Positions 28,407 to 50,760 of a DNA stretch of 64,000 nucleotides are shown here, in pieces. The stretch covers positions 744,001 to 808,000 of the forward strand of contig NZ_CP089414.1 in the NCBI RefSeq assembly GCF_022394535.1, in the 5' to 3' direction. Numbering within the stretch: position 1 is the first letter of the stretch; every line of letters begins with the position of its first letter. Position numbers and translations under genes: made by a program. Source of the stretch: Dyella terrae (GTDB taxonomy: Bacteria > Pseudomonadota > Gammaproteobacteria > Xanthomonadales > Rhodanobacteraceae). A model generated the notes under the pieces. That model did not search any database. It worked only from the letters and a program-made list of their open reading frames with translations, and was not told where the DNA came from.

Positions 28407-29495
28407 ATGGAAATCGAACGCGTTCAATTGCAGAAGCATGGTGATCACGGCGGCATGCTCATTGCCCTCGAACAGGACATCAATGTGCCTTTCGTGATCC
28501 GCCGCGTGTACTACATTTTTTCGACACAGCACGATGTGCATCGTGGCAAGCACGCCCACCGGCAATTGCATCAGTTGGCCGTGGCCGTGCGCGGGTCGGT
28601 GACCATGCTGCTCGATGATGGTACGGGGCCGGTCGAGGTGGTGCTCAACGATCCATCCCAGGGTTTACTGCTCGGCTGCATGGTATGGCGGGAACTGTAC
28701 GACTTCAGCGACGACTGCGTGCTGATGGTGCTGGCGGACCATCTCTATGATCCAGCCGACTACATCACCGATTACGACGTCTTCTTGAGCGAGGTGAAAG
28801 ACCTTGCTTATCCGAACGGGCGGGTGGCATGCCAAAGCGTCTCAGTCCTGATCGGTGCGGGCGAACTGGCGCAGATCGCCTGTGAGTATTTCGAGCACGA
28901 CAGCGACTATGAGGTTGCGGCCTTCAGCGTGGAGAGTCCGTACCTGACTGAGCCGGAGTTGGCGGGGCGGCCGGTGGTCCCGTACGAAGTGCTGGACTCG
29001 CTCTATCCTCCGGCTGAGTTTGAGGCTTTCGTGGCGGTGCCGGCGAGCCAACTCAACCGCCTGCGCGCGCGCCTCTATTTGGACGCAAAAAGCCGCGGCT
29101 ATCGCTTCGCGACCTACGTGAGCTCGCACGCCTTCGTATGGCGCAACGTCGAGGTGGGCGAGAACAGCTTCATCTTCGAGAACAACGTGATTCAGCCGTT
29201 TGTGCGCATCGGCAACAACTGCATCCTGTGGAGTGGTAACTATATCGGGCATCGCACGGTGATTCGCGACCATGTCTTCGTGGCATCGCACGCGGTTATC
29301 TCGGGCTACTGCGATGTCGGCGAAAGCAGTTTCATTGGCGTCAACACCACGTTCAACGACCACGTGAAGGTGGCGGCGGACAACGTGATCGGCTCCGGCG
29401 CGCTGGTTCATCGGGATACGGAACCGGGGAAGGTCTACGTCGGGTCGCCGGCCAAGGCGGTGCCTGGTCGGTCCAGTTTTGACGTGAAGCTCTGA
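28407..29495 (+). CDS. Fusion of FdtA/WxcM-type cupin and NeuD/PglD-like acetyltransferase
   Basis: A 362-residue two-domain protein. Residues 1 to about 135 are a sugar 3,4-ketoisomerase-type cupin (RGKHAHRQLHQLAVAVRGS with the conserved His pair). From about 145 a PglD/NeuD-type N-terminal nucleotide-binding-like domain follows (SVLIGAGELAQIA), then a left-handed beta helix of hexapeptide repeats (about 235-345) and GKVYVGSPAKAVPG. The predicted role is isomerisation of dTDP-4-keto-6-deoxyglucose to the 3-keto sugar, then N-acylation of the 3-amino sugar made by the DegT aminotransferase at 31374. The Xanthomonas WxcM fusion has the domains in the opposite order, as I recall. First gene of the glycan operon. 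Confidence 0.85.
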   Translation: MEIERVQLQKHGDHGGMLIALEQDINVPFVIRRVYYIFSTQHDVHRGKHAHRQLHQLAVAVRGSVTMLLDDGTGPVEVVLNDPSQGLLLGCMVWRELYDFSDDCVLMVLADHLYDPADYITDYDVFLSEVKDLAYPNGRVACQSVSVLIGAGELAQIACEYFEHDSDYEVAAFSVESPYLTEPELAGRPVVPYEVLDSLYPPAEFEAFVAVPASQLNRLRARLYLDAKSRGYRFATYVSSHAFVWRNVEVGENSFIFENNVIQPFVRIGNNCILWSGNYIGHRTVIRDHVFVASHAVISGYCDVGESSFIGVNTTFNDHVKVAADNVIGSGALVHRDTEPGKVYVGSPAKAVPGRSSFDVKL

Positions 29496-29501
29496 TTGCC
29501 C

Positions 29502-30449
29502 ATGACCATCTGGCGCAAGCAGGGGTTGGTCTTCGACACCGCGCGGCAGGGCGTGGGCGGGTGGATGCGTCACTCGGCGCTCACCCCGACGCCATGGCCT
29601 ATCGACGAGTCTACGATCCGCGTTTACGCGGGTTTTCGTGACGACGATGGCGTGAGTCGCATCGGCTACGTCGATGTGCTTGCGAAAGAACCATCCATCA
29701 TTCTTCGCGTCAGCAAGCAACCTGTGCTTGATGTGGGTCGCGCTGGTTGCTTTGACGACAACGGCATGATCCTGGGCGATGTGATTGATGCGCCCGGCGG
29801 CCTCCACCTGTTCTATGTGGGCTTCCAGCAAGTGGCCCGCGCGAAGTTCCTGGCCTTCACCGGGCTCGCCATCTCCAGCGATGGCGGCGAGCATTTCGAG
29901 CGAGTGCAGGAAACCCCCATCCTCGATCGCGCCCCCGGCCGAAGCACCATCGGGGCCGTACACACTGCGATGTTCGATGGGATGCAATGGCGCCTCTGGT
30001 ATGCGGTGGGCGACGACTGGGAGTGGATCGGCGGACGCCCCTTTCCGCGCTATCACATCCGCTGTGTCACAACGCGCGATCTCACGGATATTCCTCGCGA
30101 CGATCACGTCTGCCTGCTGCCGCGGGACAGCGAGTACCGCATCGGACGTCCGCGTGTGTATCAGGTAGGTGATCGTTACGCGATGCTTTTTACGCGCGGC
30201 AACATCACCGGCGAGTACTTGCCCGGGATGGCCTTCAGCGATGACGGGCGCGACTGGGCGCGCCGCGACGAGGCGCTCGGCATCGGGCTTTCCGACAGCG
30301 GCTGGGATTCACGGACGCTTTGCTATCCGGCGCTGATTCCTCGTGGCGATGACGTCCTGATGTTCTACAACGGCAATGACATGGGCCAGGACGGCTTTGG
30401 CGTGGCGGTAGCGCGCCAGTCCCTTTTTGGTGAGGCCATCCATGCTTAA
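29502..30449 (+). CDS. GH43-like five-bladed propeller protein
   Basis: A 315-residue protein with the repeated strand pattern of five-bladed beta-propeller glycosidases (GH43/GH68/GH130-like): RVYAGFRDDDGVSRIGYVD, HLFYVGFQQ, WRLWYAVGDDW, YAMLFTRGN and VLMFYNGND mark successive blades. I cannot assign the catalytic acids with confidence. No signal peptide is visible, so it acts in the cytoplasm if it is an enzyme. It begins 6 bp after the cupin fusion and overlaps the acyltransferase by 8 nt. In such loci these proteins are usually annotated as glycosylhydrolase-like with an unknown role. Confidence 0.75.
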   Translation: MTIWRKQGLVFDTARQGVGGWMRHSALTPTPWPIDESTIRVYAGFRDDDGVSRIGYVDVLAKEPSIILRVSKQPVLDVGRAGCFDDNGMILGDVIDAPGGLHLFYVGFQQVARAKFLAFTGLAISSDGGEHFERVQETPILDRAPGRSTIGAVHTAMFDGMQWRLWYAVGDDWEWIGGRPFPRYHIRCVTTRDLTDIPRDDHVCLLPRDSEYRIGRPRVYQVGDRYAMLFTRGNITGEYLPGMAFSDDGRDWARRDEALGIGLSDSGWDSRTLCYPALIPRGDDVLMFYNGNDMGQDGFGVAVARQSLFGEAIHA

Positions 30450-31374
30450 GGTGCGCCCCTACCAGCCGTCGGACGCCGATGCCTGGGATGCCGTCGTGGC
30501 GCGGTCGCGGAACGGCAACTTCCTGCACCGACGTGGCTATATGGATTATCACGCAGACCGCTTTGCCGATTGCTCGTTACTGGTGGAGCGGGGGCAGGAG
30601 ATCGTCGCAGTCTTTCCGGCCAATCTCCGCGCCAACGTGGTCAGCAGCCATGGAGGACTCACCTATGCGGGCGTTATCGCAACGCATGAGTTGCGTGCCG
30701 AGTCCACCCTGCACACCTTCGAGCTGATCGGCGAGTACTACCGGCGCAACGGCGTGGAACGTGTGGTCTACAAACCGGTGCCGCATGTCTTTCATGCATA
30801 CCCGACCGAAGAGGATCTCTACGCCCTGCAGCGCGTGGGCGCACGCTTGAGTCGACGTGATATCTCTTCAGTGATCTCGCTGCGTCATGCCGCAGGGTTC
30901 TCCGACATGCGTCGAAGAGCCATTCGGCGGGCCGAAAGCGCGAGCGTGGAAATAGGACAGGGCACGGACCTGCTGGCCTATCATGGCTTGCTCAATGAGG
31001 TGCTGCGTCGACACGAAGCCGTGCCAACGCACAGTGCCGCCGAACTTGCCCTGCTTCAATCCCGGTTTCCGGGGCAGATCGTGCTGCATGAGGCGCGCCA
31101 GGCCGGCAAGTTGCTGGCTGGGGTGTTGGTCTACGACTTCGGGCGCACCGTGCACGCCCAGTACATCGCCGCGTCGGAGGATGGCCGGCGCGTCGACGCA
31201 CTCAGTCTGCTGCTTGGTTCGTTAGTAGGCAGCGTGTACGCCGATCGCAGCTACTTTAGTTTGGGCATCTCTACCGAGCGGAACGGCACCGTGCTCAACA
31301 GTGGTCTGGTCGCGCAGAAGGAGTCCTTCGGTGCGCGCGGCGTCGTGCACGACTTTTACGAGTGGGTGCTGTGA
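30442..31374 (+). CDS. GNAT/FemAB-like acyltransferase
   Basis: A 310-residue protein with a GNAT-type opening ([18 protein letters not shown]) and a C-terminal GNAT half ([23 protein letters not shown], then a helix and [10 protein letters not shown]). The [11 protein letters not shown] segment near residue 30 resembles those seen in FemAB-like sugar acyltransferases of glycan loci. It may transfer an acyl group to a sugar nucleotide or lipid-linked glycan. It overlaps the previous gene by 8 nt and shares TGATG with the aminotransferase that follows. Confidence 0.72.
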
Positions 31375-32486
31375 TGGATGTGCCGTTCCTTTCACTGCGC
31401 GACGTTAACGCCCCTTACATCGACGAGCTCAAGGCTGCGGCGGCGAGGGTAATCGATTCCGGCTGGTACGTGATGGGTGACGAACTGGCGGCATTCGAGC
31501 GCGAGTTTGCCGCCTACTGCGGTACTGCGCATGCCGTCGGTGTGGGCAATGGGCTGGATGCGCTCTCGCTGATCCTGCGTGGCTACAAGGAGATGGGTCG
31601 GTTGCGCGATGGTGACGAGGTCATCGTTCCGGCGAACACTTTCATCGCCTCGTTCCTTGCCATCACCGCCAATCAGTTGGTGCCGGTTCCCGTCGAGCCG
31701 GATCCTGCGACCTACAACATTGATCCGGTGCGAGTCGAGGCTGCGCTGGGTGTGCGGACACGCGCGATCATGCCGGTGCATCTCTACGGCCAGCTGGCGG
31801 ACATGGGCGCGTTGGCGGATATCGCCCGTCGGCGCGGACTGCTGCTGATCGAGGATGCAGCCCAGGCGCATGGCGCAAGCAGCGAAGGCCGCCGCGCCGG
31901 TGCCTTTGGCGATGCCGCAGGGTTCAGTTTCTTTCCAGCCAAGAATCTCGGCGCGTTGGGGGATGGCGGCGCCGTGGTCACCGCTGATGACGAGCTCGCC
32001 AAGCGCGTGGCGGCTCTGCGGAATTACGGCTCGGAAGTGAAGTACCACCATGTGTACCAAGGCGTCAATTCGCGACTGGACGAAATGCAGGCGGCCCTGT
32101 TGCGGGTCAAGCTTCGCCACCTCGACAACGAGGTCGCGCGTCGCCGGTGGGTGGCGCAACGTTATCGGGAAGCCATACGTCATCCGCACATCGAGCTGCC
32201 GCAGGTGCAGGCGGAGGACGCGCACGCTTGGCATTTGTTCGTGGTTCGCTCCGGCCGGCGCGACGCGCTGAAAGCGCATCTGGCGGCCCATGGCGTACAG
32301 AGCCAGGTGCACTATCCGGTGCCGGCGCATCGCCAGCCGGCTTACCCGTCGCTGCATGGCATGAAGCTTCCGCTGACCGAGCGATTGCATCGCGAAGTGT
32401 TGAGCTTGCCGATCAGTCCGGTCATGAGCAATGAGGCTATCGTGCGCGTCATCGATGCGTGCAACGCCTTTGAGTACGCGCCATGA
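31374..32486 (+). CDS. DegT/DnrJ/EryC1/StrS family sugar aminotransferase
   Basis: A 370-residue PLP enzyme. It opens [10 protein letters not shown]; the [19 protein letters not shown] and GVGNGLDAL motifs match FdtB/QdtB-type aminotransferases, and EDAAQAHGA and [17 protein letters not shown] hold the expected PLP contacts, with the Schiff-base Lys in AKNLG. With the cupin fusion at 28407 it should make a dTDP-3-amino-3,6-dideoxyhexose (Fuc3N or Qui3N type). The dTDP-glucose synthesis genes are not in the window. It begins within the stop of the acyltransferase (TGATG) and overlaps wzx by ATGA. Confidence 0.93.
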
Positions 32487-33733
32487 ACATGGCGCGCGCA
32501 AGCATCTACGCCTCGGTGGCCACGGCGGCCAAGCTGCTCGCTGGGCTGGTGATCATCAAGCTGGTGGCCTGGATGGCGGGGCCCGAGGGCGTGGGCCGCC
32601 TCGGCCAATTCATGAGCCTGATGTCGGTGCTGGCGGTGTTGGCCGGCGGCGGCATTAGTGCAGGTGTGGTGAAGTACGTCGCCGAGTATCGCGACGATCC
32701 GCAGAAGTTGTCCCGCTTGCTGGCCGCCGCACTGTGGTATGCACTTTGCGCGTCATGCCTGATCGGTGCCGGCGGGCTGTTGCTCAGCCGGGAGATTGCC
32801 GGCTGGCTGCTGGGTGACGTCCGTTATCAAAGCCTTATTGCCGTGCTGGCCGCCGTGCAACTGGGTATTGCCCTGGTGAACTACATCCTCGCCGTCATCA
32901 ACGGCTTCATGGATGTGAAGCGGCTTGCCTGCATCCAGGTGTTGGGGTCGCTGCTCAGTATTGCGCTGGCGTTGTGCCTGTCGCGCTGGTTGCATCTGTA
33001 CGGTGCGTTGCTGGCGCTGGTGGTCGGCCAGTTGTTGGTGCTCGCCGTGGGTCTTCCCGCATGGTGGCGAAGCCCGTACTTCAATCGGCGCATGTTACGC
33101 ATGCGCTTCGATCGCGAGATGACGTTGCGGCTGGCCGCATTCTCGGTAATGACGTTGACCTCGGCATTGCTACCGCCGCTGGTGAATATCGCTGTGCGAG
33201 ACCATCTGGCCGCCCACTTCGGCTGGGAGCATGTGGGCTATTGGCAGGCGGTGGGTAAGGTGTCTGATGCCTACCTGTTGTTCCTGACCACGGCGATCAA
33301 CGTGTACTACCTGCCCAAGCTGGCATCGACGCATGCGCGCGAATCGCTGGTGGCGGAACTCCGCCTTGCCTATCGCTACGTCATGCCGGCCGTGGTGCTG
33401 CTTGCTGCGGCGGTCTACCTGTGTCGGGGCTGGGTGACGTCACTTCTATTCAGTGACGGCTTTGCGGCGGCCAATGCGCTTTACGCGCCGCAATTGATTG
33501 GGGACGTCGTGAAGATCGCTTCCTTCGTGCTGTCGTACGTGATGCTGGCGAAGGCCATGACGGGATGGTTCGTGGCTTCCGAGATCGTCTTTGCCATCAG
33601 CTATGTCGCGCTGGTGTTTCTGTTCACAGGGCGTTTCGGGTTGGTGGGCGCGATGTACGCATTCGCTGTGAATTATGTGCTTTACCTGGTTTTCAACGTC
33701 ATCGTCGTGCGTCGCTACCTGGGGGAACTATGA
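32483..33733 (+). CDS. wzx: Wzx-like O-antigen/lipid-III flippase
   Basis: A 416-residue polytopic membrane protein with about 12 hydrophobic segments, including a [16 protein letters not shown] loop after the first segment, a signature of WzxE-type polysaccharide flippases (MOP superfamily). Charged loops such as [17 protein letters not shown] are typical of the family. It would flip undecaprenyl-linked repeat units across the inner membrane, ahead of Wzy and Wzz encoded downstream. It is coupled to its neighbours by ATGA overlaps on both sides. Confidence 0.92.
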
Positions 33734-34684
33734 CGAGGGACGGAGATGTGCCCGAAGTCGTGCGATGCCAGCCGCTGGTTTCCGTGCTGGTGCCTGCGTA
33801 CAACCACGAAGACTTCGTGGAGCGTTGCCTGGACAGTGTGCTGGAGGAACCGTATCCGGCGAAGGAAGTCGTCATCATCGATGACGGATCGACGGATGCC
33901 ACGGGTCAACGCATTGCCGCCTGGATCGCCCGGCACGGTGATGAGGTACCCGTCGAGTATGTGCGGAGGGAGAACAAGGGCATTGCGGCCACGCTCAACG
34001 AGCTAGCGGCGCGTGCGCGCGGAGACTTCCTGCGTCTCAGGCGCCAGTGACGACTACCTCTTGCCGGGCGGCATCGAGGCCCAGGTGGGCTATCTGCTGG
34101 CGCATCCTGGCAAGTGGGCGGTGATTGGTGATTCGCTGGTGGTGGATCGACATGGCCGGCACCTGCACGACAGCGGCATGCGTGACCTGCACCACGCGGA
34201 CATGAGGCTCTACCAGACAGGCGATGGCATCCGTCGTGCGGTGATCACGCAATGGGCCGTCGGTGGCCCGGTGACACTGGTGCGTCGCCGCGCGTTGGAG
34301 CGGGTGGCGGGTTGGAACGAAGGGCTACGATTCGACGACTGGGATTTCTTCCTGCGCCTCTCCGCGCACGATGCCATTGGCTTTATCGACCGACCTGTGT
34401 GCGCCTATCGCATTCACGACACCAACGTGAGTCGCACGCGCGACACCCGCGCGCGTATCCACAATCTCATCGAAGCCCGTGACGTGGCGATTCGGCGGAT
34501 GGGTATGTTCGATGAGCCGTATCGCACGCTGCTGCTCGCCCAGTCCCACCATATCGGCGCCAAGATCGCCTTTTTGCAGCGACGCCTGTCAGCCGTCGCC
34601 GCGCACATGGCCGCGTACGCATGGCTGACGCAGGTGTCTCGAATGAAGAGTGGGCCACCCCATCGACTGGCGGCACGCACATGA
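33730..34684 (+). pseudogene. Family 2 glycosyltransferase split by a frameshift
   Basis: From ATG 33730 the frame encodes a GT-A fold start (PLVSVLVPAYNHEDFVERCL, VVIIDDGSTDATGQRIAAW) but stops at 34048-34050 after RGDFLRLRRQ. In the next frame the protein resumes with GASDDYLLPGGIEAQVGYLL, the expected SDD acceptor-side motif, then WAVGGPVTLVRRRAL, GLRFDDWDFFLRLS and on to 34684. Joining the frames after codon CTC (34036-34038) and dropping one base near 34039 gives RGDFLRLGASDDYLLPG, a normal GT2 sequence. So one extra base (or a loss of two) interrupts an otherwise intact gene of about 317 codons. It overlaps wzx and wzy by ATGA. It is a real mutation, a sequencing error or, less likely, programmed frameshifting. 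Confidence 0.85.
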
Positions 34685-35856
34685 AGCAGCTCCTTCGCTT
34701 GCCTGCGTTCTACCTGAGTGCGCCGCTGCTGGTGGCCTGCGGCTTGACGTTGCTCACCTATGACCTGCCATCCGACTACATGGAAGGCCTGCTGCTGCTT
34801 GCGGCGGCGGCCATGGCGATTCTGGCTCTGGACACCTTCGTTGGCATTCGCTTGCCGCGTAGCGAGGCATTCCTTGCGCGCGACTACACGGGAACGCGCG
34901 ACGCCTTCGTGGCCTTGGTCTTCGCCGCCGTGATTGTGTTGTTTTGCCTGTTGGACCTGCTGCTGTTCCCGGTGCCCTTGTTTGCGTCTCCAACCTCCTA
35001 CGCGAACATGGAAGGTGGCCGTGACCATATCCGGCACGTGTCGGACATGTGTTGGGTACTGCCGCCGATCGGCCTGTTGTGCGCACGCCAGCGATGGCTG
35101 CGTGCCGCGCTCGTGCTGGCGGGCCTTGTCTTTCCGGTGCTGGTGATTGACCGAAACCGGATCTTTGCGGCGTTGTTCTCCGTGGCGCTCGTCGTGCTGC
35201 TGCGGCGTCACGAGGCAAAGGCCTTGCCGTGGAAACGGGTGCTGCTGTTGGCCGTGGGTGGCACGACAGTGTTCTCGGTGCTCGGCATCCTGCGCTCGGG
35301 CACGCTGGATTACGTGACACTCCCTTTCAGCGACATGTATCGGGGCGCGCCACAAGGCGTGAAGTGGCTACTCCTGTATGCCAGCGCCGGGCCGTACAAC
35401 TTCGCCTCCATCCTGGCCAAGCAGTACAACGACACCCATTTCCTGATCAATCAGTTGGTGCCGATGGCCGGATCGATCGCCACGGCGGACACCGGCATTC
35501 CGCTGGATGCGGCCAACATCAACGTGGGCACGGAGTTTTTCCCCTTCCTTATGGCGCTGGGGCCGGGCGGCGCCATCGCCTCCATGGTCGGCCTGTATCT
35601 GATGCTGCTGTGGAGCGTGCGACGCGTGCAGCCGACGGTGCCGCTGTTCGGTCTGCTCATCTTCCTGCGTGTGTCCTACACGGCCGTGATGGCGCCGTTC
35701 GCACCGCAGGCGTTCACCTGGACCAGCTTCGGCTTCATTGCGTTATGCCTGTTGCTGCAACTGGTCTCCTCGCTGCTACCTGATCGCCGTACTCAGGGGC
35801 CGCCTGTCGAACACGGTATGCCCGCCGGCCACGGCGCATCCCCCTCCACCCATTGA
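34681..35856 (+). CDS. wzy: Wzy-like O-antigen/oligosaccharide repeat-unit polymerase
   Basis: A 391-residue membrane protein with about ten hydrophobic segments and one larger periplasmic loop (about 225-290, with SAGPYNFASILAKQYN and a DTGIPLDAANINVGTEFF stretch) typical of O-antigen polymerases of the repeat-unit polymerase family. It has little primary conservation, as usual for Wzy; the assignment rests on topology and on its position between wzx/GT and wzz. It starts by ATGA overlap with the glycosyltransferase. Confidence 0.85.
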   Translation: MKQLLRLPAFYLSAPLLVACGLTLLTYDLPSDYMEGLLLLAAAAMAILALDTFVGIRLPRSEAFLARDYTGTRDAFVALVFAAVIVLFCLLDLLLFPVPLFASPTSYANMEGGRDHIRHVSDMCWVLPPIGLLCARQRWLRAALVLAGLVFPVLVIDRNRIFAALFSVALVVLLRRHEAKALPWKRVLLLAVGGTTVFSVLGILRSGTLDYVTLPFSDMYRGAPQGVKWLLLYASAGPYNFASILAKQYNDTHFLINQLVPMAGSIATADTGIPLDAANINVGTEFFPFLMALGPGGAIASMVGLYLMLLWSVRRVQPTVPLFGLLIFLRVSYTAVMAPFAPQAFTWTSFGFIALCLLLQLVSSLLPDRRTQGPPVEHGMPAGHGASPSTH

Positions 35857-35868
35857 CGAGTCAGGATC

Positions 35869-37658: not shown

Positions 37659-37662
37659 CGTG

Positions 37663-38886: not shown

Positions 38887-39584
38887 TGTTGCACACACCG
38901 ATTCTCGATCCCGCTGAAGCCTATGCGCTGTGGGCGCCCAGCTATCCGCCACACGCGCACAATCCTGTGATGCAGGCGGAAGAGCGGGCCATGCTCGCTC
39001 TGCTGCCGCAGGACCTGAGCGGCCGCAACGTATTGGACGCCGGCTGTGGTACGGGGCGCTATATGCGCTACGCCTTGCAACGCGGCGCTGCTCGACTGCT
39101 AGGGGTGGATCTATCGCGCGACATGTTGCTGCGCGCCGACACCGAGTTGCACAACGAACGCAGGCGCGTGCCTGTGGAGCTTATGCAGGGCGGCCTGGAT
39201 GCGTTGCCCGTGGCCGACGCCTGGGCTGATCTCACCGTCTGTGGATTGGCCGTCGGGCATGCCGAGCAGCTCGAGCCGGTACTGGCGGAGCTCAGTCGTG
39301 TCACACAACCCGGCGGCATGGTGTTGTGCAGCGACGTGCATCCCATCGGTCACGCACTGGGTTGGTTGCGCGACTTCAAGGCCGAAGGTCGTCGTTATGC
39401 CGTGCGCCATACCGCGCATCTCTACAGCCACTGGCATGCCGCGTGCGCGGCGTTGGATCTGGAGATCGGCTGCGTGCTGGAGCCCATGATCGATCCCGCG
39501 GATATCCCGGCCGGGGCGCACTTTGATCCCGCGGCACTGCATGTGCCGGTGGCTCTTGTTTTCCAGTTGTGGCGAAGGCCATGA
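38877..39584 (+). CDS. Class I SAM-dependent methyltransferase (UbiE/type 11-like)
   Basis: A 235-residue protein with motif I VLDAGCGTGRYMRYAL near residue 52, VDLSRDML and VTQPGGMVLCSDVHP. It resembles type 11 small-molecule methyltransferases. The second methyltransferase of the operon, it is tightly coupled to the amidohydrolase (10-nt overlap) and the radical SAM gene (ATGA). The acceptor cannot be deduced; coupling suggests that the three enzymes act on the same intermediate. Confidence 0.87.
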   Translation: MSLMLHTPILDPAEAYALWAPSYPPHAHNPVMQAEERAMLALLPQDLSGRNVLDAGCGTGRYMRYALQRGAARLLGVDLSRDMLLRADTELHNERRRVPVELMQGGLDALPVADAWADLTVCGLAVGHAEQLEPVLAELSRVTQPGGMVLCSDVHPIGHALGWLRDFKAEGRRYAVRHTAHLYSHWHAACAALDLEIGCVLEPMIDPADIPAGAHFDPAALHVPVALVFQLWRRP

Positions 39585-41119: not shown

Positions 41120-41122
41120 TCC

Positions 41123-42247: not shown

Positions 42248-43356
42248 AGCTCGCGCTGGTGGTGCCAGGGGGCGTCGACCGCACCGGGGAGTTCCGTGTG
42301 ATTCCCGTGCTGCTGGCATTGATCCGGCGACTGGCCTGCGAGCATGAAGTGCACGTGTATGCGTTGCGACAGGAGGCCGCCGCGGATGGTTGGCGGCTCG
42401 CCGGTGCGCATATCCACAATATCGGTGATGGCTGGCCGCGCCTGCGTGCCATCGGCGCCATCCGCGACGAGCACCAACGGGCGCCATTCGATCTGGTGCA
42501 TGCCATCTTCTCGGGTTCGTGCAGCCTCGTTGCGGTGGTGGCTGCTGTATGGCTCGGCGTGCCGAGTCTGGTGCATATCGCGGGCGGCGAACTGGTCGCC
42601 ATGCATGAGATCGACTATGGCGGCCGCCGTTTCCTGAAGGGGCGGTTGCGCGAAGCACTTGTGTTGCGCGGAGCCGACGCGGTGACCGCGGCGAGCGCGC
42701 CCATCATCGATTCCCTGCGGACACTAGGGCTGCGGGCGCGCCGGGTGCCATTGGGCGTGGATCTTCGTTGCTGGCCACCTAAGCCACCAAAATGCCGGCG
42801 CGAGAGTCGTGCGCGGCTTATTCATGTGGGCAGCCTCAACCGTGTGAAGGATCAACCGACGCTGTTGCGTGCGCTTGCCGTGCTGGTCGAACAGGGCGTG
42901 GACTTCGAGATGGATATCGTTGGGCAGGACACCCTCGATGGCGAGATGCAGCAGCTGGCTCATGCTCTGGAGCTCGATGAGCATGTGCATTTCCACGGCT
43001 TCAAGACGCAGCGCGAGTTGCGTCCCATGATGGAGGCGGCTGATCTGTTGGTGATGTCGTCCTTTCACGAGGCAGGGCCGCTCGTGGCGCTGGAGGCTGC
43101 CGTGGTGGGTGTACCTACGGTTGGCACGGCCGTGGGGCATATTGCCGAGTGGTCGCCATCTGCCGCGATGGCCGTGCCTGTAGGCGACTGGTCGGCGTTG
43201 GCAGAAGCCATTCGACGTGTGCTGGAGGATGACGCGCTGCGCCTGCGACTCGCGGTATCAGCGCATCGCCGCGCCGTGACGGAGGACGCCGACCACACGG
43301 CGCGAGCCTTCCAGGCGCTCTATCTTCAAGTAGTGACGGCGGGCCCGGGGCGCTGA
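42244..43356 (+). CDS. Family 4 glycosyltransferase
   Basis: A 370-residue GT-B enzyme with the GT4 signatures LIHVGSLNRVKDQPTLLRAL, VHFHGFKTQRELRPMM and SSFHEAGPLVALEAAVVGVP (E-x7-E region). The N-terminal half starts KLALVVPGGVDRTGEF. The GTG start overlaps the previous stop. It is the last plus-strand gene of the long glycan operon and overlaps the convergent nucleotidyltransferase gene by 31 nt. Confidence 0.9.
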   Translation: MKLALVVPGGVDRTGEFRVIPVLLALIRRLACEHEVHVYALRQEAAADGWRLAGAHIHNIGDGWPRLRAIGAIRDEHQRAPFDLVHAIFSGSCSLVAVVAAVWLGVPSLVHIAGGELVAMHEIDYGGRRFLKGRLREALVLRGADAVTAASAPIIDSLRTLGLRARRVPLGVDLRCWPPKPPKCRRESRARLIHVGSLNRVKDQPTLLRALAVLVEQGVDFEMDIVGQDTLDGEMQQLAHALELDEHVHFHGFKTQRELRPMMEAADLLVMSSFHEAGPLVALEAAVVGVPTVGTAVGHIAEWSPSAAMAVPVGDWSALAEAIRRVLEDDALRLRLAVSAHRRAVTEDADHTARAFQALYLQVVTAGPGR

Positions 43357-44600
43357 GTCCACGCGGGCGATGTCTGCTCAAGCGCAGCACGCACCACGTA
43401 CATGGTGTCCATGCGGGTTACCGGGTGCTTGAGCCAGGCGAGTGCGCGACGCCACAGCGTGGCCGTTACCCATGGTGACGCCTGCAGCCAGAGTTGTGTG
43501 CGCACCATGTCGGCCCGTTCCTGTCGTGCTTGCGCCGATGGACGTACGCGGTTCAGGGCGAATTGTCCGGCTTCGCGGACCGAGCGCGACCATTCGATGC
43601 CGGACCACGCATGCAGCCATAGTTCGGAGCAGGAGGCCTTGGTCAGGGTGAGGTGCCTGGATGCGAAGCGAAGTGGGCCACGGCATTCGGACTCAAGCTC
43701 GTAGAGCAGCGAGGGCGGAACGGCGCCGGTGTAGTAGCGCGACACCAGCAACAGCGGAGGCAGAGCCCACCAGGGAGATTCCGTGGTGCCGTCACCCCAG
43801 AGCGCCAGCCACTCGCTACGCACCATACGGGCGGCCAGCAGCGAAATATCGTTCAGATGAATGAGCCGCATCGTGCGATTGCAGATGTTACCCGCCGCGT
43901 GCAGCAGCAAATGGCTCATCAGCGCGCCATGCGACGGATACGAGTTGATGCCTGGCGCCGGCGAGCGCGGGTAGATGCAGCTCGTGATATCCACGGTGGC
44001 TACTGGAAGCCGTTCCTGGATGCGCGTATGCAGTTCGATGTTGATCGGTGTGTCGCGGTGTTCGCCAAGACAGACGACGTTTGCGTTGTCCGCCGGCTTG
44101 TAGACCCGGTGCTTCCAGCCGGCGAACGAAAGCACATAGCCCATGCTTTCGAGCATGGCGCCGGCGTACTCCTGATTTTCCTCGCTCACCAATAGGTCGA
44201 TGTCCGCCATGGGACGCTCGCCCGGCGCATAAATGCCGATGGCGTGGAGTGCCGTTCCCTTGAGTGCCACCAATGGCACGCCTATGCCGCGTGCCTGTGT
44301 GTCGATACGCTGCAGTAAGGTATCGATGCGCTCGTGGCGCCGCGCCACATGGTCGTGCTGACTTTCGAGGAACCGCGTCCACTCGGGATTGCTCCAATGG
44401 ACGTAGGTGTGTAGTTGCCCGGCGACACCATGAGCCACTGCAGCCGCAGTGGCCAGTCGCCATTCCAGCGCATTCCAGTCGGGCGTGTCGCCCGTGGGAT
44501 GTGCGAGCTCGATGGCGAGCGTTTCGGTGGTGCGCAGCAGGCCAGCCTTGATACGTTCAAGCGAGGGCTGGGCGCGTGGCGTGGTGCGTCCGTCAGGCAT
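43326..44600 (-). CDS. Nucleotidyltransferase family protein (NTP_transf_5-like)
   Basis: A 424-residue protein with the NTP_transf_5 hallmark PLVALKGTALHAIGIY followed by GERPMADIDLLV (metal-binding Asp pair) near residues 110-145. Members are often encoded in glycan loci and beside HprK-like kinases and PqqD proteins, and related proteins tailor some lasso peptides; their exact reaction is usually unknown. It overlaps the upstream radical SAM gene by 8 nt, so the two are coupled. ATG 44600 is the chosen start; ATG 44630 would overlap the neighbour more. Confidence 0.85.
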   Translation of the reverse strand: MPDGRTTPRAQPSLERIKAGLLRTTETLAIELAHPTGDTPDWNALEWRLATAAAVAHGVAGQLHTYVHWSNPEWTRFLESQHDHVARRHERIDTLLQRIDTQARGIGVPLVALKGTALHAIGIYAPGERPMADIDLLVSEENQEYAGAMLESMGYVLSFAGWKHRVYKPADNANVVCLGEHRDTPINIELHTRIQERLPVATVDITSCIYPRSPAPGINSYPSHGALMSHLLLHAAGNICNRTMRLIHLNDISLLAARMVRSEWLALWGDGTTESPWWALPPLLLVSRYYTGAVPPSLLYELESECRGPLRFASRHLTLTKASCSELWLHAWSGIEWSRSVREAGQFALNRVRPSAQARQERADMVRTQLWLQASPWVTATLWRRALAWLKHPVTRMDTMYVVRAALEQTSPAWTQRPGPAVTT

Positions 44601-46071
44601 GTTGTGACGTTCCTGCGCGCAGTGGCGCATCCAGGGGAGTCGTGCGATGCGAGACCTCTGTCTCGATCAGTGAGCGCCAACGGCCATCCAGGGTGCGGGA
44701 GGCTTGACGGTGCCGGTCGGGCAGGTCGACCACCTTCCATTGCTGCACAATGACCTGTTCGTGCAGCAGATCGCGCACGCGGCGATAGAACTCCGAGTCG
44801 TAGGCACCCTGGAACATCATGGCGAGGTCGTCGCTGTCCCGCCAATGCGTCTTCTCACCAAGTTGCGCCTTCACCTGTTCGTAGAAGCGCGTGCCGGGCA
44901 ACGGATAGGAGACGCTGACGCCAATATCATCCGGCGCGGCGCGTGCAATGAGATCACGCGTAGCCAGAATATCCTCGAGCTGCTCACCTAGATAACCAAG
45001 CTGGATGAAGAAGCCCACGCGGATGCCCAGCGCACCCAATCGCTCGCGAGCGGTGATCAGATCAGCGACCTTGGTGCCCTTGTTCATATGGTCCAGTACG
45101 CGCTGGCTTCCACTTTCTGCGCCGATCCAGGCTTCCGTGCAGCCCGCGTGGCTCAGTGCCGTCGCCATGCGGTCGCTGATAAGGTCGGCGCGGGTCTGGA
45201 TGGTGAAGGGGATGGCGCCGCCGATCTGGTTGACGTGCGCGGCAAACGCCTCGACCCAGTCCACGTGGAATCCAAAGATGTCATCGGCGAGCCAGATATG
45301 GTCCGCGTGGAAAGTGTGTTTGAGGTACGCCATCTCCGCCGCGACATCCTCGGCGGATCGACGGTTGTAATGGTTACCCCAGATGGGCTTGGCGCACCAG
45401 TTGCAACGAAACGGACAGCCGCGCGATGCCGCCATATTGAGGCTGAAATGGCCGTGCCGCTCCACCCAGAAGGTACGGTAGCGTTCCACGTCGATAAGAT
45501 CCCACGCGGGATGGCCGACGATGCGTGGATCGGGTGGTGCGGCGCCGATGCGTTTCAGTTGCAGCGTGTCGCGTTCCATCGACGCCACACCGGCGAGACC
45601 AGCTACCCATTCATGAGCGTCGATGGATGGATTCTGGTCAAGCCGACGGATCAGTTCGACCAAGGGCGCAATGCCTTCGCCGATCAATACGGCATCCGCA
45701 CCCGCGGCCAGGAAGGCGTCTGGCTGGTCGGAGGCGTCGGAGCCCGCGACGATCACGCGCGCACCCGATGCGCGGGCCATGGCGATCATCTCGCAGGCCG
45801 CATCGCGCATGCGGGCCAGGCACATCTTGGTCAGGTAATTGAAGTTGTCCTCGTAGATGAGGACAACGTCGGGCCTGGATGTCGGCAAGGTCGCGGCATA
45901 GTCTTCGACGCCTTCGGCAAGCATGGCGTCGAACAGGGAAACCTGGTGGCCTACGCGACGTAACAGCGCGGCCACATGGATGGTCGCGAGAGGCGGATAG
46001 GGTTTGCCGCGTTCCCATTGCTTGCGGTCGAACCTCAGGAAGTAGGAGTGACCGACCTGAATGGTTAGCAT
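44593..46071 (-). CDS. Radical SAM enzyme with B12-binding-like domain
   Basis: A 492-residue protein. N-terminal cobalamin-domain-like region (about 5-150: TIQVGHSYFL, YPPLATIHVAALLRRVGHQVSLFDAM, DAVLIGEGIAPLVELI). The radical SAM core has CPFRCNWC near residue 205 and WLADDIFGF, TRADLI, EAWIGAESGSQRVL after it. No clear DxHxxG is seen. ATG 46071 gives the usual short lead before the first strand; in-frame starts at 46119 and TTG 46140 would add a hydrophilic extension whose codon use also looks coding. It is coupled to the nucleotidyltransferase by an 8-nt overlap and divergent from the HprK-like kinase. Confidence 0.88.
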   Translation of the reverse strand: MLTIQVGHSYFLRFDRKQWERGKPYPPLATIHVAALLRRVGHQVSLFDAMLAEGVEDYAATLPTSRPDVVLIYEDNFNYLTKMCLARMRDAACEMIAMARASGARVIVAGSDASDQPDAFLAAGADAVLIGEGIAPLVELIRRLDQNPSIDAHEWVAGLAGVASMERDTLQLKRIGAAPPDPRIVGHPAWDLIDVERYRTFWVERHGHFSLNMAASRGCPFRCNWCAKPIWGNHYNRRSAEDVAAEMAYLKHTFHADHIWLADDIFGFHVDWVEAFAAHVNQIGGAIPFTIQTRADLISDRMATALSHAGCTEAWIGAESGSQRVLDHMNKGTKVADLITARERLGALGIRVGFFIQLGYLGEQLEDILATRDLIARAAPDDIGVSVSYPLPGTRFYEQVKAQLGEKTHWRDSDDLAMMFQGAYDSEFYRRVRDLLHEQVIVQQWKVVDLPDRHRQASRTLDGRWRSLIETEVSHRTTPLDAPLRAGTSQHA

Positions 46072-46136
46072 CTTGGAAGGATCTCCGTCATTGCCGTTGG
46101 GCGAGCTGCTCCGGCGCATCCACGGCAGGTCGGCGA

Positions 46137-46280
46137 TCAAGCCTCCAGCGTTTTACGCTCGTCAGGCGTGAGTGCCGCGAAGGGGTTCAGCGGTTGCGTT
46201 GCCTTGCTGAAATATTTGGATGTCCATTCGTGTTGGCGTGTGCTATCACATAGCCGCCTGACATCATCGATACGTGCCAT
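46137..46280 (-). CDS. Possible 47-residue small protein upstream of the radical SAM gene
   Basis: A small frame beginning with an ATG at 46280 that shares a CATG with the oppositely oriented start of the HprK-like gene (46279). It ends NPFAALTPDERKTLEA, a protein-like tail whose codons have higher third-position GC than its first half. The stop overlaps a potential TTG start of the radical SAM gene at 46140. It could be a small accessory or substrate peptide, or simply the chance reading of a promoter region. No family is recognised. Confidence 0.25.
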   Translation of the reverse strand: MARIDDVRRLCDSTRQHEWTSKYFSKATQPLNPFAALTPDERKTLEA

Positions 46281-47289
46281 GACATCCGAGCCCGAGACGA
46301 GCGACCTGCTCGCCGATCCCTTCCTCGAGCGACCTGCACGCGGGCGATCGGTCGAGCACTGGATCCTGGGGCGTCGCTTTCGCTTCACCAGTGAGAGTGA
46401 GGCGCTGCTTGCTTTGGTGGATGCCACGTATGCAGGACTGCCTCCGCATGCGCTTTCGGCAGACCCGACGCCGCTTCAGATCGAACTGCGCGTGGCGTCG
46501 CTTCGCAGCGAGTGGGCGGGCGAGCCGCCGCCGGTGCACATGCAGTCCGGGGCTGGCTTGTTGTGCGGGGTCGTGGATGCAGCCAACTATGTCGTGATTT
46601 CCCCTGCGACCGGCCATGCACTCATCGTGGCATCCGCGGACATGCTGGCCTTCCCTTATCACCTGCGCTACGAACTCATCGAGTTCGCGGTGTTCACCTT
46701 GGCTACGCGCGTGCAGGGCTTAATCCCCCTGCATGGGGCCTGTCTTGGCCTGAATGGCCGTGGGCTTCTGATCATGGGTGGCAGTGGGGCAGGTAAGTCG
46801 ACACTGGCGTTGCACGGTATGTTGGAGGGGCTGGAACTTCTCGCCGAGGATGCGGTGTTTGTGCACGCGGAAAGCTTGCGTGCCACCGGCGTTCCCAACT
46901 ATCTCCATGTGCGTCAGGATGGGTTGGCCTGGGTGGACGACGCGCAATATCGCCAATGGATCAGCAGCTCGCCGACGATAACGCGCCGTAGTGGGGTGGA
47001 GAAATTCGAGATCGATCTTCGCCATGGGCCAGCGCGACTGGCTGCGCCACTCGCGCTCGCGGGTATCGTGTTTGTTGCTTCACCCGGTCCGGCGACAACC
47101 ACGGCGCAGCTTCGCCCGGTCGGCAGGGAGGGCGTGGCTGCTCGCCTTGCCGTCGAGCAACCGTATGCCGCCAGTCAGCAGGGATGGGTGACCTTTATGC
47201 ATGAAGTGGCACGACTGAAGACATTCGAGCTGATTCGCGGGCGTCATCCGCTGGAATCAGTCCGCATGCTCCGGCAGTTGCTGGACTGA
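46279..47289 (+). CDS. HPr kinase-like (HprK-related) protein
   Basis: A 336-residue protein whose second half has an HprK C-terminal-like P-loop: LHGACLGLNGRGLLIMGGSG with GAGKST (Walker A near residue 175) and LLAEDAVFVH after it. The first half (about 30-150) is unlike the HprK N-terminal domain and resembles the lead of HprK-related kinases encoded in glycan and RiPP-like loci. It is predicted to phosphorylate a protein or peptide Ser, or a small molecule. No PqqD-like gene is next to it. It is followed 149 bp later by an ABC exporter. Confidence 0.85.
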   Translation: MTSEPETSDLLADPFLERPARGRSVEHWILGRRFRFTSESEALLALVDATYAGLPPHALSADPTPLQIELRVASLRSEWAGEPPPVHMQSGAGLLCGVVDAANYVVISPATGHALIVASADMLAFPYHLRYELIEFAVFTLATRVQGLIPLHGACLGLNGRGLLIMGGSGAGKSTLALHGMLEGLELLAEDAVFVHAESLRATGVPNYLHVRQDGLAWVDDAQYRQWISSSPTITRRSGVEKFEIDLRHGPARLAAPLALAGIVFVASPGPATTTAQLRPVGREGVAARLAVEQPYAASQQGWVTFMHEVARLKTFELIRGRHPLESVRMLRQLLD

Positions 47290-47438: not shown

Positions 47439-49376
47439 ATGCCGAGTGCATGGCGGGGTCTGTTGCGTGAGCGGGCGAATGGCCTGCCGCGGTCCTTTTT
47501 TGGGACGTTGCGGCCCCTGGGGCTGTGGCGGATCGCAGCGTACGTAGCGTTGTCGCTAGGCAGTGCATTGACTGGCGGCATCGCAGCCCTGCTGGTGGCG
47601 TCGATGATTCAACCCGGTTCCGTGGGCTGGCTCGGTAGCCGGTGGCAAGTGCCCAGCGCCAGCATGGAGATGCACGCACTGCTCTTTGTGATGGCGTCCG
47701 CGGTGTTTGCGCTGATGCGTTGGCAGGCAGCGCGCTTGGCCGCAGGGCTCGCCAGCAGTTATGGCATGCAGCTCCGTGGCCGCGTGCACGAAAGCCTGAT
47801 CGAGGCACCACTCGCATCGTTGGCGGATGCCACCTCGGCTGAGCTGGCCAACGTGCTGACACACAACGTCGAGATCGTGACGCAGGGCTTCAATGCCCTG
47901 ATGCAATTATTGGTCGCGGGAATCACCACCCTGGTCAGCCTGGCGTTTGCGCTCTGGGTATCGCCACCGCTCGTGTTGGCGGTGCCGGTCCTCGTGGCGT
48001 GTTCGTTGATTGCCGCGCACTTCAGCAGTCTCGAACACGCAGCGGTGAGTCGGCGCTATGTGGCGGATATGACACGGCTGTTCTGGATGAGCGAAGACTT
48101 TCCGCGACGCTGGCGACATATCAAGTCGTTTGGACAGGAGCAAGCGGAGAAGGAGCACCATGCAGCGGCGTCAGGGCAACTGGGCGAGGGATATCGTCGG
48201 CAACTGGAGTTGATCGCATCCGGGCGCCTGGTGATTGAAGTGCTTGCAGCCGTGGGTATCGCTGCGATTCTCGTGGTAGCGCATCGATGGCACGGCGTCG
48301 ACCAGGCGTCACTGATCGCGGTGTGCTTGCTGCTGGGGCGTTTGCTTCCGTATCTTGTCTCCACTCGGCAAAGCGTTCACCAGCTTGCATCCGCCATACC
48401 GGCTTTCGCGCTGTGGTGCAGGTATGCAAGTACGACGCCCTCCGCAACTACGGAGACGATGGCAGCTCCAGCTGCGCAGCCTCTGCGCATCGAGTTGTTG
48501 TCGATCGCCGATCCCATGACGTTCTGCGTAAACGATCTATGGCTCTACCCGGGCAAACTGCTTCTGATCCGTGGCGACTCAGGTATCGGCAAGACCAGCC
48601 TGGCGGATGTGCTCGCGGGCATGATTCGTCCCGCGGCATTTACAGCATGGCTGGGCGCACGCCGCATGGACTTTGACGCCTACCGCGCATGGGTCCGCAA
48701 TGGGGCCTATATCAGCCAGAGCGTACGACCTTGGCAACGGACGGTACGCGATTGCCTGCGCTGGGCTGCGAAGGACGCCAGTGAAGAAGCCATGCACGAA
48801 GCCCTGGTGGACGTAGGGCTCGATAAGCGCCTCGCGTCTTCGAGAGACGGACTCGACGCCACCCTGGATGGTTCATCGGGCCGGTTGTCGGGAGGCGAGA
48901 TCCAGCGGTTGCTATTGGCCCAGGTATTGTTGCGGCGACCGACCCTGGCCATTCTTGACGAGGCGACCAGCGCACTGGATGCGGCAGCCGAGGCGCGGGT
49001 GCTGACGATAGTCAGGCAACGATTGCCGGATACGATCCTTATCGTCATCTCACATCGCGCCGGCGTTGCCAGCCTGGCGGACCGGAGCCTGACAATCGGC
49101 GCCGATCTGGTTGCAACCATCAAGGAGTCGATCGAATCTGGCGACAGCACGAACACGTTATCGCAGCTTTCCGAGCTGAGATCGTGCGGGAATGACCTCG
49201 CACTAAGCCTCGGCGAACGGCATTTCCTGCCGGCGACGATAGGTCTGATAGTAGCCTGGCGTGTGATGGAGCTGATCGCCGTGCGCGAGCGGTTCGTCAG
49301 AGAAGATCCGGCCGAGAAAGAAAGTATGGGAGCCGATTTCCTGACTGTGCAGCAGGGTCAGCTCATGCACGCATAG
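47439..49376 (+). CDS. ABC transporter, fused permease and ATP-binding domains
   Basis: A 645-residue exporter half-transporter. Five to six membrane segments lie within about 30-310; the ATPase has Walker A GDSGIGKTSL (about 385), signature LSGGEIQ (about 483), Walker B LAILDEATSALD (about 505) and H-loop VISHR. There is no C39 peptidase domain. GGAAG precedes ATG 47439. The last 58 residues or so (GERHFLPATIGL onward) are read from the complement of the convergent flavin-reductase-like gene, a 174-nt overlap, so the natural end may be a recent extension. With the HprK-like kinase it suggests export of a modified product. Confidence 0.9.
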   Translation: MPSAWRGLLRERANGLPRSFFGTLRPLGLWRIAAYVALSLGSALTGGIAALLVASMIQPGSVGWLGSRWQVPSASMEMHALLFVMASAVFALMRWQAARLAAGLASSYGMQLRGRVHESLIEAPLASLADATSAELANVLTHNVEIVTQGFNALMQLLVAGITTLVSLAFALWVSPPLVLAVPVLVACSLIAAHFSSLEHAAVSRRYVADMTRLFWMSEDFPRRWRHIKSFGQEQAEKEHHAAASGQLGEGYRRQLELIASGRLVIEVLAAVGIAAILVVAHRWHGVDQASLIAVCLLLGRLLPYLVSTRQSVHQLASAIPAFALWCRYASTTPSATTETMAAPAAQPLRIELLSIADPMTFCVNDLWLYPGKLLLIRGDSGIGKTSLADVLAGMIRPAAFTAWLGARRMDFDAYRAWVRNGAYISQSVRPWQRTVRDCLRWAAKDASEEAMHEALVDVGLDKRLASSRDGLDATLDGSSGRLSGGEIQRLLLAQVLLRRPTLAILDEATSALDAAAEARVLTIVRQRLPDTILIVISHRAGVASLADRSLTIGADLVATIKESIESGDSTNTLSQLSELRSCGNDLALSLGERHFLPATIGLIVAWRVMELIAVRERFVREDPAEKESMGADFLTVQQGQLMHA

Positions 49377-50129
49377 CGCCGAAGCCACCGCCGGAATGCC
49401 CAGTTCCAGCGAGAGGCGCACGGGAAACGGCAGGGCGTCCCAGTCCTTCAGCGGCACTTTATGGTGCTCGCTGAGTTTGTAGGCCATGGGTTTCATGTCA
49501 GCGGGAATACAGGACAGCGCAACGCGGCCCGTTTCACGCATGATCTGCGCGGAGACGTTGGTACTGCGCAAGGCGAGTGAATACAGTCCGCTCCGCGATA
49601 GCGGACCGATCAGGTCCATCGGGAACATGTTCCGGTGATGAGGTGTGTCGATAGAGACGAGTACGACCGGTCGTGGGCACAGGTACGCGACCATCAGTTG
49701 CTGTACCGCAACGGGAGCCATCAACGCATGATGTGCGGAGGGTTGCCGCTGCATCAGGCGATTTTGCAACCAGCGGTTCCAGGCGCTTCTCGGCCAGCCG
49801 AGGCAATGATGCTCGCCCGCTGTGACGCGATAGAGCGTGGGTGAACCATGCTCAGCGATGCCCAGTGAAACCATCCGTGTCAGCCGCAGGCTTCCCACCC
49901 GCTTGCCCGTGAGCTTGTCGCAATACTCGATGGCCGTTCGTTGACCTGCATCGATGCTGGTCGCGATGACCAGCGGCTTGAGCGAAGCCACGGTGTGATC
50001 CGCAGTGACATCGGTCACGCCGTCATCCCCGTGCAGATACGCAGCAACCGCGTGTTGCGGAGCGGCGATGGCTACCGTCGACCATTGCGGGAGCGGACGC
50101 ACCAGGGGACGTATCCAGTCTTTCCACAT
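49203..50129 (-). CDS. Flavin reductase-like (FMN-binding split barrel) protein
   Basis: A 308-residue protein. The C-terminal half fits a flavin-reductase-like split barrel: HRNMFPMDLIG, SGLYSLALRSTNVSAQIM, GRVALSCIPADMK, and near the end IGSHTFFLGRIFSDEP and GYYQTYRRR. The N-terminal half (WSTVAIAAPQHAVAAYLHGD and on) is unassigned. It starts one base after the methyltransferase stop, so the two are translationally coupled. The 3' end overlaps the ABC transporter by 174 nt. It may be a flavin-dependent oxidoreductase rather than a reductase. Confidence 0.62.
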   Translation of the reverse strand: MWKDWIRPLVRPLPQWSTVAIAAPQHAVAAYLHGDDGVTDVTADHTVASLKPLVIATSIDAGQRTAIEYCDKLTGKRVGSLRLTRMVSLGIAEHGSPTLYRVTAGEHHCLGWPRSAWNRWLQNRLMQRQPSAHHALMAPVAVQQLMVAYLCPRPVVLVSIDTPHHRNMFPMDLIGPLSRSGLYSLALRSTNVSAQIMRETGRVALSCIPADMKPMAYKLSEHHKVPLKDWDALPFPVRLSLELGIPAVASALCVHELTLLHSQEIGSHTFFLGRIFSDEPLAHGDQLHHTPGYYQTYRRRQEMPFAEA

Positions 50130-50130
50130 G

Positions 50131-50760
50131 TCAGATGCGCCGGAACAACAGGAACATGTAGAGCTGGGTCGCCATGCCGAGGCCGCCAGGTTCGATCCGC
50201 TCCAGGCGGAAGTGCGGCGCTGCTGACCGAGCCACGACGCGCGGCGCAAAACGATGGATGCGGCTTTCGCTTGGGATGGCGTAATGGCCGCGGCGAAGTA
50301 GATGGAAAGCGTTGGCCAGCCACCAGCCGTAGCGCGCATCGCCCAGGTAATAGGGGTTGAGCATGCTCGTCAGCACAAAGCCGCCCTTGCGGACCGTGCG
50401 AGATAGCTCATCGAAGAGTTGGGTGTGATCCGCGAAATGGTTGAAGACCGCGAAATTCGCCGTCACAGCGAACACCCTGCATTCGTTGGATTCATCGATA
50501 CTGATGATGGTTCGCTGATCGAGTTCTTCGCGGCAGTACATCAACAGGTGATCGCGCATGGCGGATGAAGGTTCATAGACAAACGTGCGGTGCCCATGAG
50601 CCGCGTAGGTCCTGGCATCAATGCCCGTTCCCGCCCCAAAATCGAGTATGTCTGCCCCATGCGGTAGCAGCTCCATCGCCATCCGCTGGAACCGGCTGCG
50701 CACCGCTACGTCCCGGCGGGAGGTCAGAAAGAATTGGTGGTACTGCTCTCCGGTATGCAT
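50131..50760 (-). CDS. Class I SAM-dependent methyltransferase
   Basis: A 209-residue protein with motif I DILDFGAGTGIDARTYAAHG near residue 38, FVYEPSSAM and VRKGGFVLTSMLNPYYLGD. It resembles small-molecule methyltransferases. ATG 50760 is the chosen start; a TTG at 50808 would add 16 residues. It is coupled to the flavin-reductase-like gene and probably belongs to the modification part of the glycan/secondary-product locus, of which it marks the end. Confidence 0.83.
   Translation of the reverse strand: MHTGEQYHQFFLTSRRDVAVRSRFQRMAMELLPHGADILDFGAGTGIDARTYAAHGHRTFVYEPSSAMRDHLLMYCREELDQRTIISIDESNECRVFAVTANFAVFNHFADHTQLFDELSRTVRKGGFVLTSMLNPYYLGDARYGWWLANAFHLLRRGHYAIPSESRIHRFAPRVVARSAAPHFRLERIEPGGLGMATQLYMFLLFRRI

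Follow-up and report, generated by a model that had tools for sequence, protein, structure and literature searches.

The surface-glycan locus of Dyella terrae described here raises the question of whether it encodes one pathway or two. The window, which is the whole 64,000-nucleotide stretch that was analysed (G000:C1:744001-808000, within a 5.36-Mb single-contig genome), carries 20 genes spanning 28.4–50.8 kb in Pfam and NCBIfam scans. The first-pass annotation described a Wzx/Wzy/Wzz operon interleaved with two methyltransferases, an amidohydrolase and a radical S-adenosylmethionine (SAM) enzyme, followed by an NTP_transf_5 nucleotidyltransferase, a second radical SAM enzyme, an HprK-like kinase, an ATP-binding cassette (ABC) exporter, a third methyltransferase and a flavin-reductase-like protein. 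Pfam scans show all of these genes to be present in 28407..50760, and the limits 28407 and 50760 match the start codons inferred for FdtA and the third methyltransferase, MT3. It had been suggested that the right half (43.3–50.8 kb) either makes or exports a separate small product or adds an unusual substituent to the glycan; the second alternative fits the results given here, and the first is not supported by them. The reading preferred, with a probability of about 0.5, is that the locus specifies a single Wzx/Wzy-type pathway for a surface glycan of fixed structure, in which a substituent made by B12-binding radical SAM enzymes is attached via a kinase/nucleotidyltransferase step.

The FdtA-to-ABC genes are inherited as one unit

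The HprK-like kinase (46168..47289, plus strand, start inferred at 46279), the NTP_transf_5 protein (NTP5; 43326..44630, minus strand) and the Wzy-like membrane protein (34621..35856, plus strand) were used to search 148 genomes, that of the window included. Strong matches to the HprK-like protein (E <1e-60) and to NTP5 (E <1e-100) are found in the identical 38 of the 148 genomes, the weaker matches in other genomes being short P-loop or partial alignments. The Wzy-like protein, from the left half, is present in 37 of those 38 carriers and in none of the 110 others. Carriers and non-carriers are mixed in five genera, so the pattern is not that of one clade.

Stretches of 20 kb were taken around 36 loci, from 36 of the 37 other carrier genomes, and left extensions were joined for 35 of them; G081 was not fetched, as its HprK and NTP5 matches lie on different contigs, and G085 was not extended, as its Wzy match is on another contig. 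The order FdtA-DegT-Wzx-Wzy-MT1-amidohydrolase-MT2-rSAM1-GT4-NTP5-rSAM2-HprK-ABC is collinear in the 35 joined loci, with scattered gaps, and collinearity across 35 other genomes is far beyond chance. Both the HprK-like protein and NTP5 are present in all 35 by protein search. The per-gene and upstream-gene counts given here and below come from mechanical picking of open reading frames (ORFs), which gets some starts wrong, and are lower bounds (32/35 for the HprK-like protein and 33/35 for NTP5).

Pairwise protein distances correlate with a mean r of 0.65 between the halves, 0.66 within the left half and 0.78 within the right, where the FdtA and rSAM1 rows, noisy from ORF picking, are kept in the means. 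The distances of rSAM2 follow those of Wzx and Wzy (r 0.84 each; ABC 0.82). Some observations pull the other way. NTP5, HprK and ABC have mutual r values of 0.78–0.85, versus 0.55–0.72 with Wzx and Wzy, and this tighter correlation leaves room for some looseness. In the sole carrier without a Wzy match, G059, none of the FdtA-to-Wzy genes was found in the 40-kb stretch, and about 8–12 kb lies between GT4b and NTP5 or rSAM2 in G019, G063, G059 and G051. Taken as a whole, the FdtA-to-ABC genes are inherited, with their order kept, as a single unit across this group of bacteria, and that the locus is one pathway is well supported.

It is therefore very unlikely that the right half is a separate tailoring and export module for a small molecule or peptide of lasso type, or for another ribosomally synthesised and post-translationally modified peptide (RiPP), sitting beside the glycan genes. 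An ABC exporter together with a radical SAM enzyme would suit such a module, as would the tighter grouping of the NTP5, HprK and ABC distances; independent mobility of the whole right half was rejected on the genomes shared with Wzy, the conserved order and the distance correlations. The parallel with lasso-peptide tailoring drawn in the first-pass annotation holds for the pair of kinase and nucleotidyltransferase and for nothing beyond it. In those systems (PsmK/PsmN, PadeK) an HprK-type kinase likewise has an annotated nucleotidyltransferase and an ABC exporter as neighbours. According to the passages available from PMC9266682 and PMC8498205, PsmK phosphorylates a serine, to which PsmN attaches one or two hexoses; the assignment of PsmN, as glycosyltransferase or as nucleotidyltransferase, is left undecided there. 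Unlike the lasso systems, the Dyella locus has glycan genes, and no precursor was found in it. PqqD (PF05402) has no match anywhere in the genome, the single Transglut_core3 (PF13471) match is at C1:5212392, about 4.4 Mb from the window, and no asparagine-synthetase-like cyclase domain is present among the 20 locus ORFs scanned. In a rough test for a precursor no conserved small ORF of at least 60 residues was found in 36 loci, the small gap ORFs tested either matching few loci or overlapping neighbouring coding sequence. A lasso or other RiPP cluster was accordingly rejected.

The right-half genes do co-occur in other genomes, where the possibility had been raised that they never would. Of the independent movement from wzx/wzy that had also been suggested, one part stands: the flavin-reductase-like protein (49203..50339, minus strand, start inferred at 50129; PF01613 41.8 bits, cut-off 27) and MT3 (50131..50760, minus strand, ORF opening at 50808; PF13489 50.7) behave as a movable pair, and the rest of the right half does not. 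The two are found together in 10/35 loci, nine of the MT3 copies by ORF picking and a tenth in L067. They lie downstream of the ABC gene on the minus strand in four loci and on the plus strand in three, and between GT4b and NTP5 in the other three. In G019 (L064, L198) there is a second, C-terminal fragment of NTP5, 137 residues long and 72% identical, some 10 kb away from the complete gene, which looks as if an insertion has duplicated part of the gene.

Mobility of this pair, together with the Wzx/Wzy/glycosyltransferase architecture, is what would be expected had a common type of variable O-antigen or capsule locus acquired genes unrelated to it. Against that, the gene order is constant, and Wzx and Wzy are 57–93% identical across 35 genomes of many genera; such conservation suggests one glycan of fixed structure rather than a variable O-antigen. 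This explanation, already disfavoured, is highly improbable.

Glycan genes and their neighbours

The genes of the left half, from FdtA to GT4b, are all on the plus strand. The first (28407..29495, in an ORF that opens at 28077; 32/35 loci) encodes an FdtA sugar ketoisomerase fused to an acetyltransferase of NeuD/PglB/VioB type (PF05523 146.9 bits, cut-off 23; TIGR03570 182.2, cut-off 160.8). It is followed by a 317-residue protein without a Pfam or NCBIfam family match (29496..30449; 31/35), a GNAT/FemAB-like acyltransferase (30427..31374; PF13480 30.2, cut-off 22; 30/35) and a DegT/DnrJ/EryC1 aminotransferase (31362..32486; PF01041 375.8, cut-off 19.8; 31/35). The WzxE-like flippase (32483..33733; 34/35) belongs to the polysaccharide-synthesis family expected of a Wzx/Wzy locus (PF01943, Polysacc_synt, 49.1, cut-off 28.2). 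The Wzy-like protein (34/35) and a Wzz-like protein with a transmembrane segment at either end (35869..36819; 27/35) are assigned by position and by the hydrophobic segments of their translations; in the Wzz-like protein no kinase domain was found in the Pfam and NCBIfam scans or in the translation.

Between the flippase and Wzy lies a family-2 glycosyltransferase (GT2; 33730..34684), picked as an ORF in 12/35 loci and with its C-terminal piece at 52–90% identity in 34/35. In the window it is split, the N-terminal motifs being in the ORF 33565-34050 and the remainder in the ORF 34013-34684 in another frame. In all 20 relatives with both pieces aligned the frames fit one intact gene. The split is either a mutation or an assembly error. 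The other glycosyltransferases, GT4a (41123..42247; PF13692 74.4; 25/35) and GT4b (42244..43356; PF00534 98.1; 35/35), close the left half.

In having dideoxy-amino-sugar genes, a WzxE-like flippase, Wzy- and Wzz-like proteins and glycosyltransferases, with no exporter gene of its own for the outer membrane, the locus resembles those for Wzx/Wzy O-antigens and enterobacterial common antigen. It differs from them in its two B12 radical SAM enzymes, amidohydrolase, kinase, nucleotidyltransferase and ABC exporter, and in a gene set that is fixed across genera. Its flippase also misses the equivalog cut-off of 325 bits for WzxE (NF011679), scoring 284.5 with positions 1-412 of 416 aligned.

Four further left-half genes encode modifying enzymes, among them the first radical SAM enzyme, rSAM1, which is considered below. 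The methyltransferases are MT1 (36816..37658, in an ORF that opens at 36564; PF13649 68.4; 33/35) and MT2 (38877..39584; PF08241 69.8; 26/35). The ATZ/TRZ-type amidohydrolase (37663..38886, in an ORF that opens at 37639; PF01979 51.5, cut-off 25) is present in 35/35 loci. Among its relatives HxH is kept in 37/38, with one gap, and the remaining HxxE, H and D residues in 38/38; these are the metal-site residues expected of a purine deaminase among the ATZ/TRZ-type amidohydrolases. The best model is 8-oxoguanine deaminase (59.6 of 532 bits), and 5'-deoxyadenosine deaminase gives 26.1 of 522.

Upstream, on the minus strand, are genes for a subtilase, an anti-sigma factor, an extracytoplasmic function (ECF) sigma factor and a Gcw_chp-like protein (22201..25637), which are upstream in 30, 31, 32 and 32 of the 35 loci, and for a cytochrome c, a 501-residue protein with a CxxCH motif and a cytochrome b561 (25759..28392), in 21, 22 and 21; some of the relatives' stretches stop short of these genes. 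In four congeners without the locus the subtilase has no match in three and one of 40% in the other, and the 501-residue protein is unmatched in two and has matches of 31–33% in two. These companions may belong to the system. Farther off in the window (4012-15464) an ORF of 3225 residues precedes a transporter gene of ShlB/FhaC type, and the two resemble a pair for two-partner secretion.

Radical SAM, kinase and nucleotidyltransferase genes

Both radical SAM enzymes, rSAM1 (39569..41119, plus strand; 34/35 loci) and rSAM2 (44593..46140, minus strand, start inferred at 46071; 35/35, 66–93% identical to the window protein), carry a B12-binding as well as a radical SAM domain. For rSAM1 the scores are 58.6 to PF04055 and 53.1 to PF02310 (cut-off 32.1); for rSAM2 they are 62.4 and a borderline 32.2. 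The CxxxCxxC motif is present in both, in 87/87 rSAM2-type relatives and in 40/42 of rSAM1 type. By domain order and family they are like the B12-binding radical SAM group of HpnJ, AprD4, BchE and PhpK, and among solved structures AprD4 and 9ccb are the best matches for each of the two. At cut-off no NCBIfam model matches the radical SAM enzymes, the methyltransferases, the amidohydrolase, NTP5 or the HprK-like protein.

In the HprK-like protein the P-loop lysine and an ED pair are invariant across 12 aligned sequences, and many of its homologues bear a precomputed PF07475 label; from its P-loop, it may work like HPr kinase. NTP5 passes the gathering score of PF14907 (90.7 bits; 31.2), its KG...D[IVL]D motif is kept in 46/46 related sequences, and its closest named relatives are from Dyella. 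An HprK-related kinase (HprK_rel_A, TIGR04352) is also associated with an NTP_transf_5 protein in the HPr-rel-A system, but the window protein scores 35.6 bits, below the curated cut-off of 200, and there is no PqqD protein here. The ABC exporter (47439..49376, plus strand; PF00005 69.8, cut-off 25; PF00664 29.3; 34/35) is a half-transporter with membrane and ATPase domains. Its ORF overlaps that of the flavin-reductase-like protein tail-to-tail by 174 bases (49203-49376), and the ABC protein is shorter in most relatives.

Relatives of rSAM2 were sought more widely with a profile scan of species genomes, in which at least 523 were confirmed and the best 80, not a census, were kept. The best-named among these 80 are from Dyella, Rhodanobacter, Frateuria, Luteibacter, Xanthomonas and Luteimonas. 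No match at 1e-60 was found among 72,556 plasmid records, and class-wide profile scans of 369 genomes for HprK (1e-20) and rSAM2 (1e-100) gave, among the matches listed, the Dyella genome only, which in this class-spread sample says only that close relatives are rare outside the group.

The 80 loci divide into 39 near and 41 distant ones. The distant set comprises seven proteobacterial metagenome-assembled genomes at 56–61% identity and 34 loci at 46–52% from other classes and phyla (Chloroflexota, Acidobacteriota, Planctomycetota, Alpha- and Betaproteobacteria, Chitinophagaceae and others). Genes were counted here at a threshold of at least 100 bits, with profiles derived from clusters of these very loci, so that the counts describe recurrence and are no independent test of it; several loci are short contigs, and absences weigh little. 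MT1 is present in 27/41, a nucleotidyltransferase-fold protein in 25/41, a second rSAM2-like enzyme in 16/41, rSAM1 in 14/41 and a SPASM radical SAM enzyme in 7/41. MT2 and the amidohydrolase are each present in 8/41, seven loci having both. An enzyme of purine nucleoside phosphorylase (PNP) type is also found in 8/41, never together with the amidohydrolase; for both, the nearest models are those of enzymes that process purines. One locus, L153 (Anaerolineales), has the amidohydrolase within a neighbourhood otherwise of PNP type. In L143 (Chloroflexi) rSAM2 has a flippase, Wzy_C and GT2 for neighbours.

The nucleotidyltransferase is NTP5 in seven distant loci and belongs to a second family, d2, in 18; no locus has both. 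Three further NTP5 scores are weak, at 40–84 bits. The d2 protein has a nucleotidyltransferase fold with an N-terminal winged helix and adjoins rSAM2 relatives, for example in L143, L144, L146, L152, L157 and L159; the copy of L143 has no Pfam or NCBIfam match. The replacement of NTP5 by another family of this fold in 18/41 distant loci bears on the idea that the HprK-like protein and NTP5 are regulators of the glycan machinery, acting by protein phosphorylation and nucleotidylation, rather than tailoring enzymes. This substitution speaks against such a role, as do the position of both genes adjoining rSAM2, not Wzz, and the fact that NTP5 is nearest to the aminoglycoside-modifying ANT(2'')-Ia, and regulation is unlikely.

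A proposed pathway

From the families of the proteins, FdtA, the aminotransferase and the acetyltransferase would make a nucleotide-linked 3-acylamino-3,6-dideoxyhexose, GT2, GT4a and GT4b would assemble a lipid-linked oligosaccharide, and the WzxE-like flippase, Wzy and the kinase-less Wzz would flip, polymerise and size it. The remaining steps are the least certain. The two radical SAM enzymes, with MT1 and MT2, might produce an unusual residue, probably carbon-modified, or rearrange one, and the substrate of the amidohydrolase might be a purine base or nucleoside: a by-product of the radical SAM reaction or else a nucleoside-bearing intermediate. The HprK-like kinase could then phosphorylate the residue, and NTP5 transfer a nucleotidyl or sugar-phosphate group to give a phosphodiester-linked decoration, by analogy with PsmK and PsmN. 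The ABC exporter may move the decorated precursor or its lipid carrier, and the flavin reductase and MT3 would make an optional further change in some strains.

The futalosine pathway is that of MqnE, a deaminase and MqnB, and its radical SAM enzymes, as in hopanoid synthesis, adenosylate and are not B12-dependent, unlike rSAM1 and rSAM2. In the futalosine and the hopanoid pathways (HpnH/HpnG, in the available text of PMC12583986) a radical SAM step is tied to a purine deaminase or PNP-family enzyme, which is reminiscent of the alternation of amidohydrolase and PNP-type enzyme in the distant loci, a likeness that does not rest on homology. By that analogy, a pathway common to several phyla is conceivable in which a nucleoside-derived branch is put onto a surface glycan by radical SAM enzymes. 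Trimming of a 5'-deoxyadenosyl or other purine-nucleoside intermediate would fall to the amidohydrolase, with the PNP-family enzyme taking this role in Anaerolineae, and the residue would then be phosphorylated and capped by HprK and the nucleotidyltransferase. This is a speculative proposal.

A number of results weigh against the pathway as a whole. All scores of rSAM1 and rSAM2 against named radical SAM families, those of HpnJ, AprD4, BchE and PhpK included, are far below cut-off, so no reaction is assignable, and the HprK-like match to PF07475 (31.1 bits) is under the gathering score of 33.3. MT1 is missing from 14/41 distant loci and rSAM1 from 27/41. The HprK-like protein is found in 9/41, and in the 34 loci of other classes and phyla it is found in three and NTP5 in one, which places the kinase step outside the shared core. 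The Wzy-like protein has no Pfam or other meaningful family match; the Wzz-like protein has no Pfam match over cut-off and a weak match to EpsV (24.6 of 800 bits).

The lack of a family match for the Wzy-like protein would also fit a non-polymeric product, for instance a glycoside that is lipid-linked or secreted, in which case the substrate of the radical SAM enzymes would be a sugar on a lipid. The locus has no outer-membrane polysaccharide exporter (OPX) and no initiating transferase of the Bac_transf family; the sole genome matches are about 0.34 Mb and 0.30 Mb off. The product may thus be attached to lipopolysaccharide or lipid, or use shared machinery. An exporter is not required by O-antigen-type polymers. 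There is a precedent in HpnI/HpnK/HpnJ, where a radical SAM enzyme of related family converts lipid-linked glucosamine (available text of PMC12583986). The Wzz-like protein in 27/35 loci and the WzxE-like flippase in 34/35 point instead to a polymer or repeat-unit system, and a non-polymeric product is considered unlikely.

The fixed-structure Wzx/Wzy pathway with its phosphate-attached substituent remains the preferred reading. The first-pass annotation could match the gene set to no pathway, and searches of the open-licence literature likewise turned up no account of it, whether linked to a known product or not; the Wzx/Wzy-type glycan locus apparently carries an undescribed radical-SAM/kinase/nucleotidyltransferase set. 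B12-dependent radical SAM enzymes are associated mainly with antibiotics, peptides and lipids. If the proposal is true, some bacterial envelopes bear residues made by radical chemistry that glycan analysis has not sought. The presence of a fixed set in Dyella, Rhodanobacter and their relatives, and of a recurring core elsewhere, would make this chemistry testable in cultivable environmental strains.

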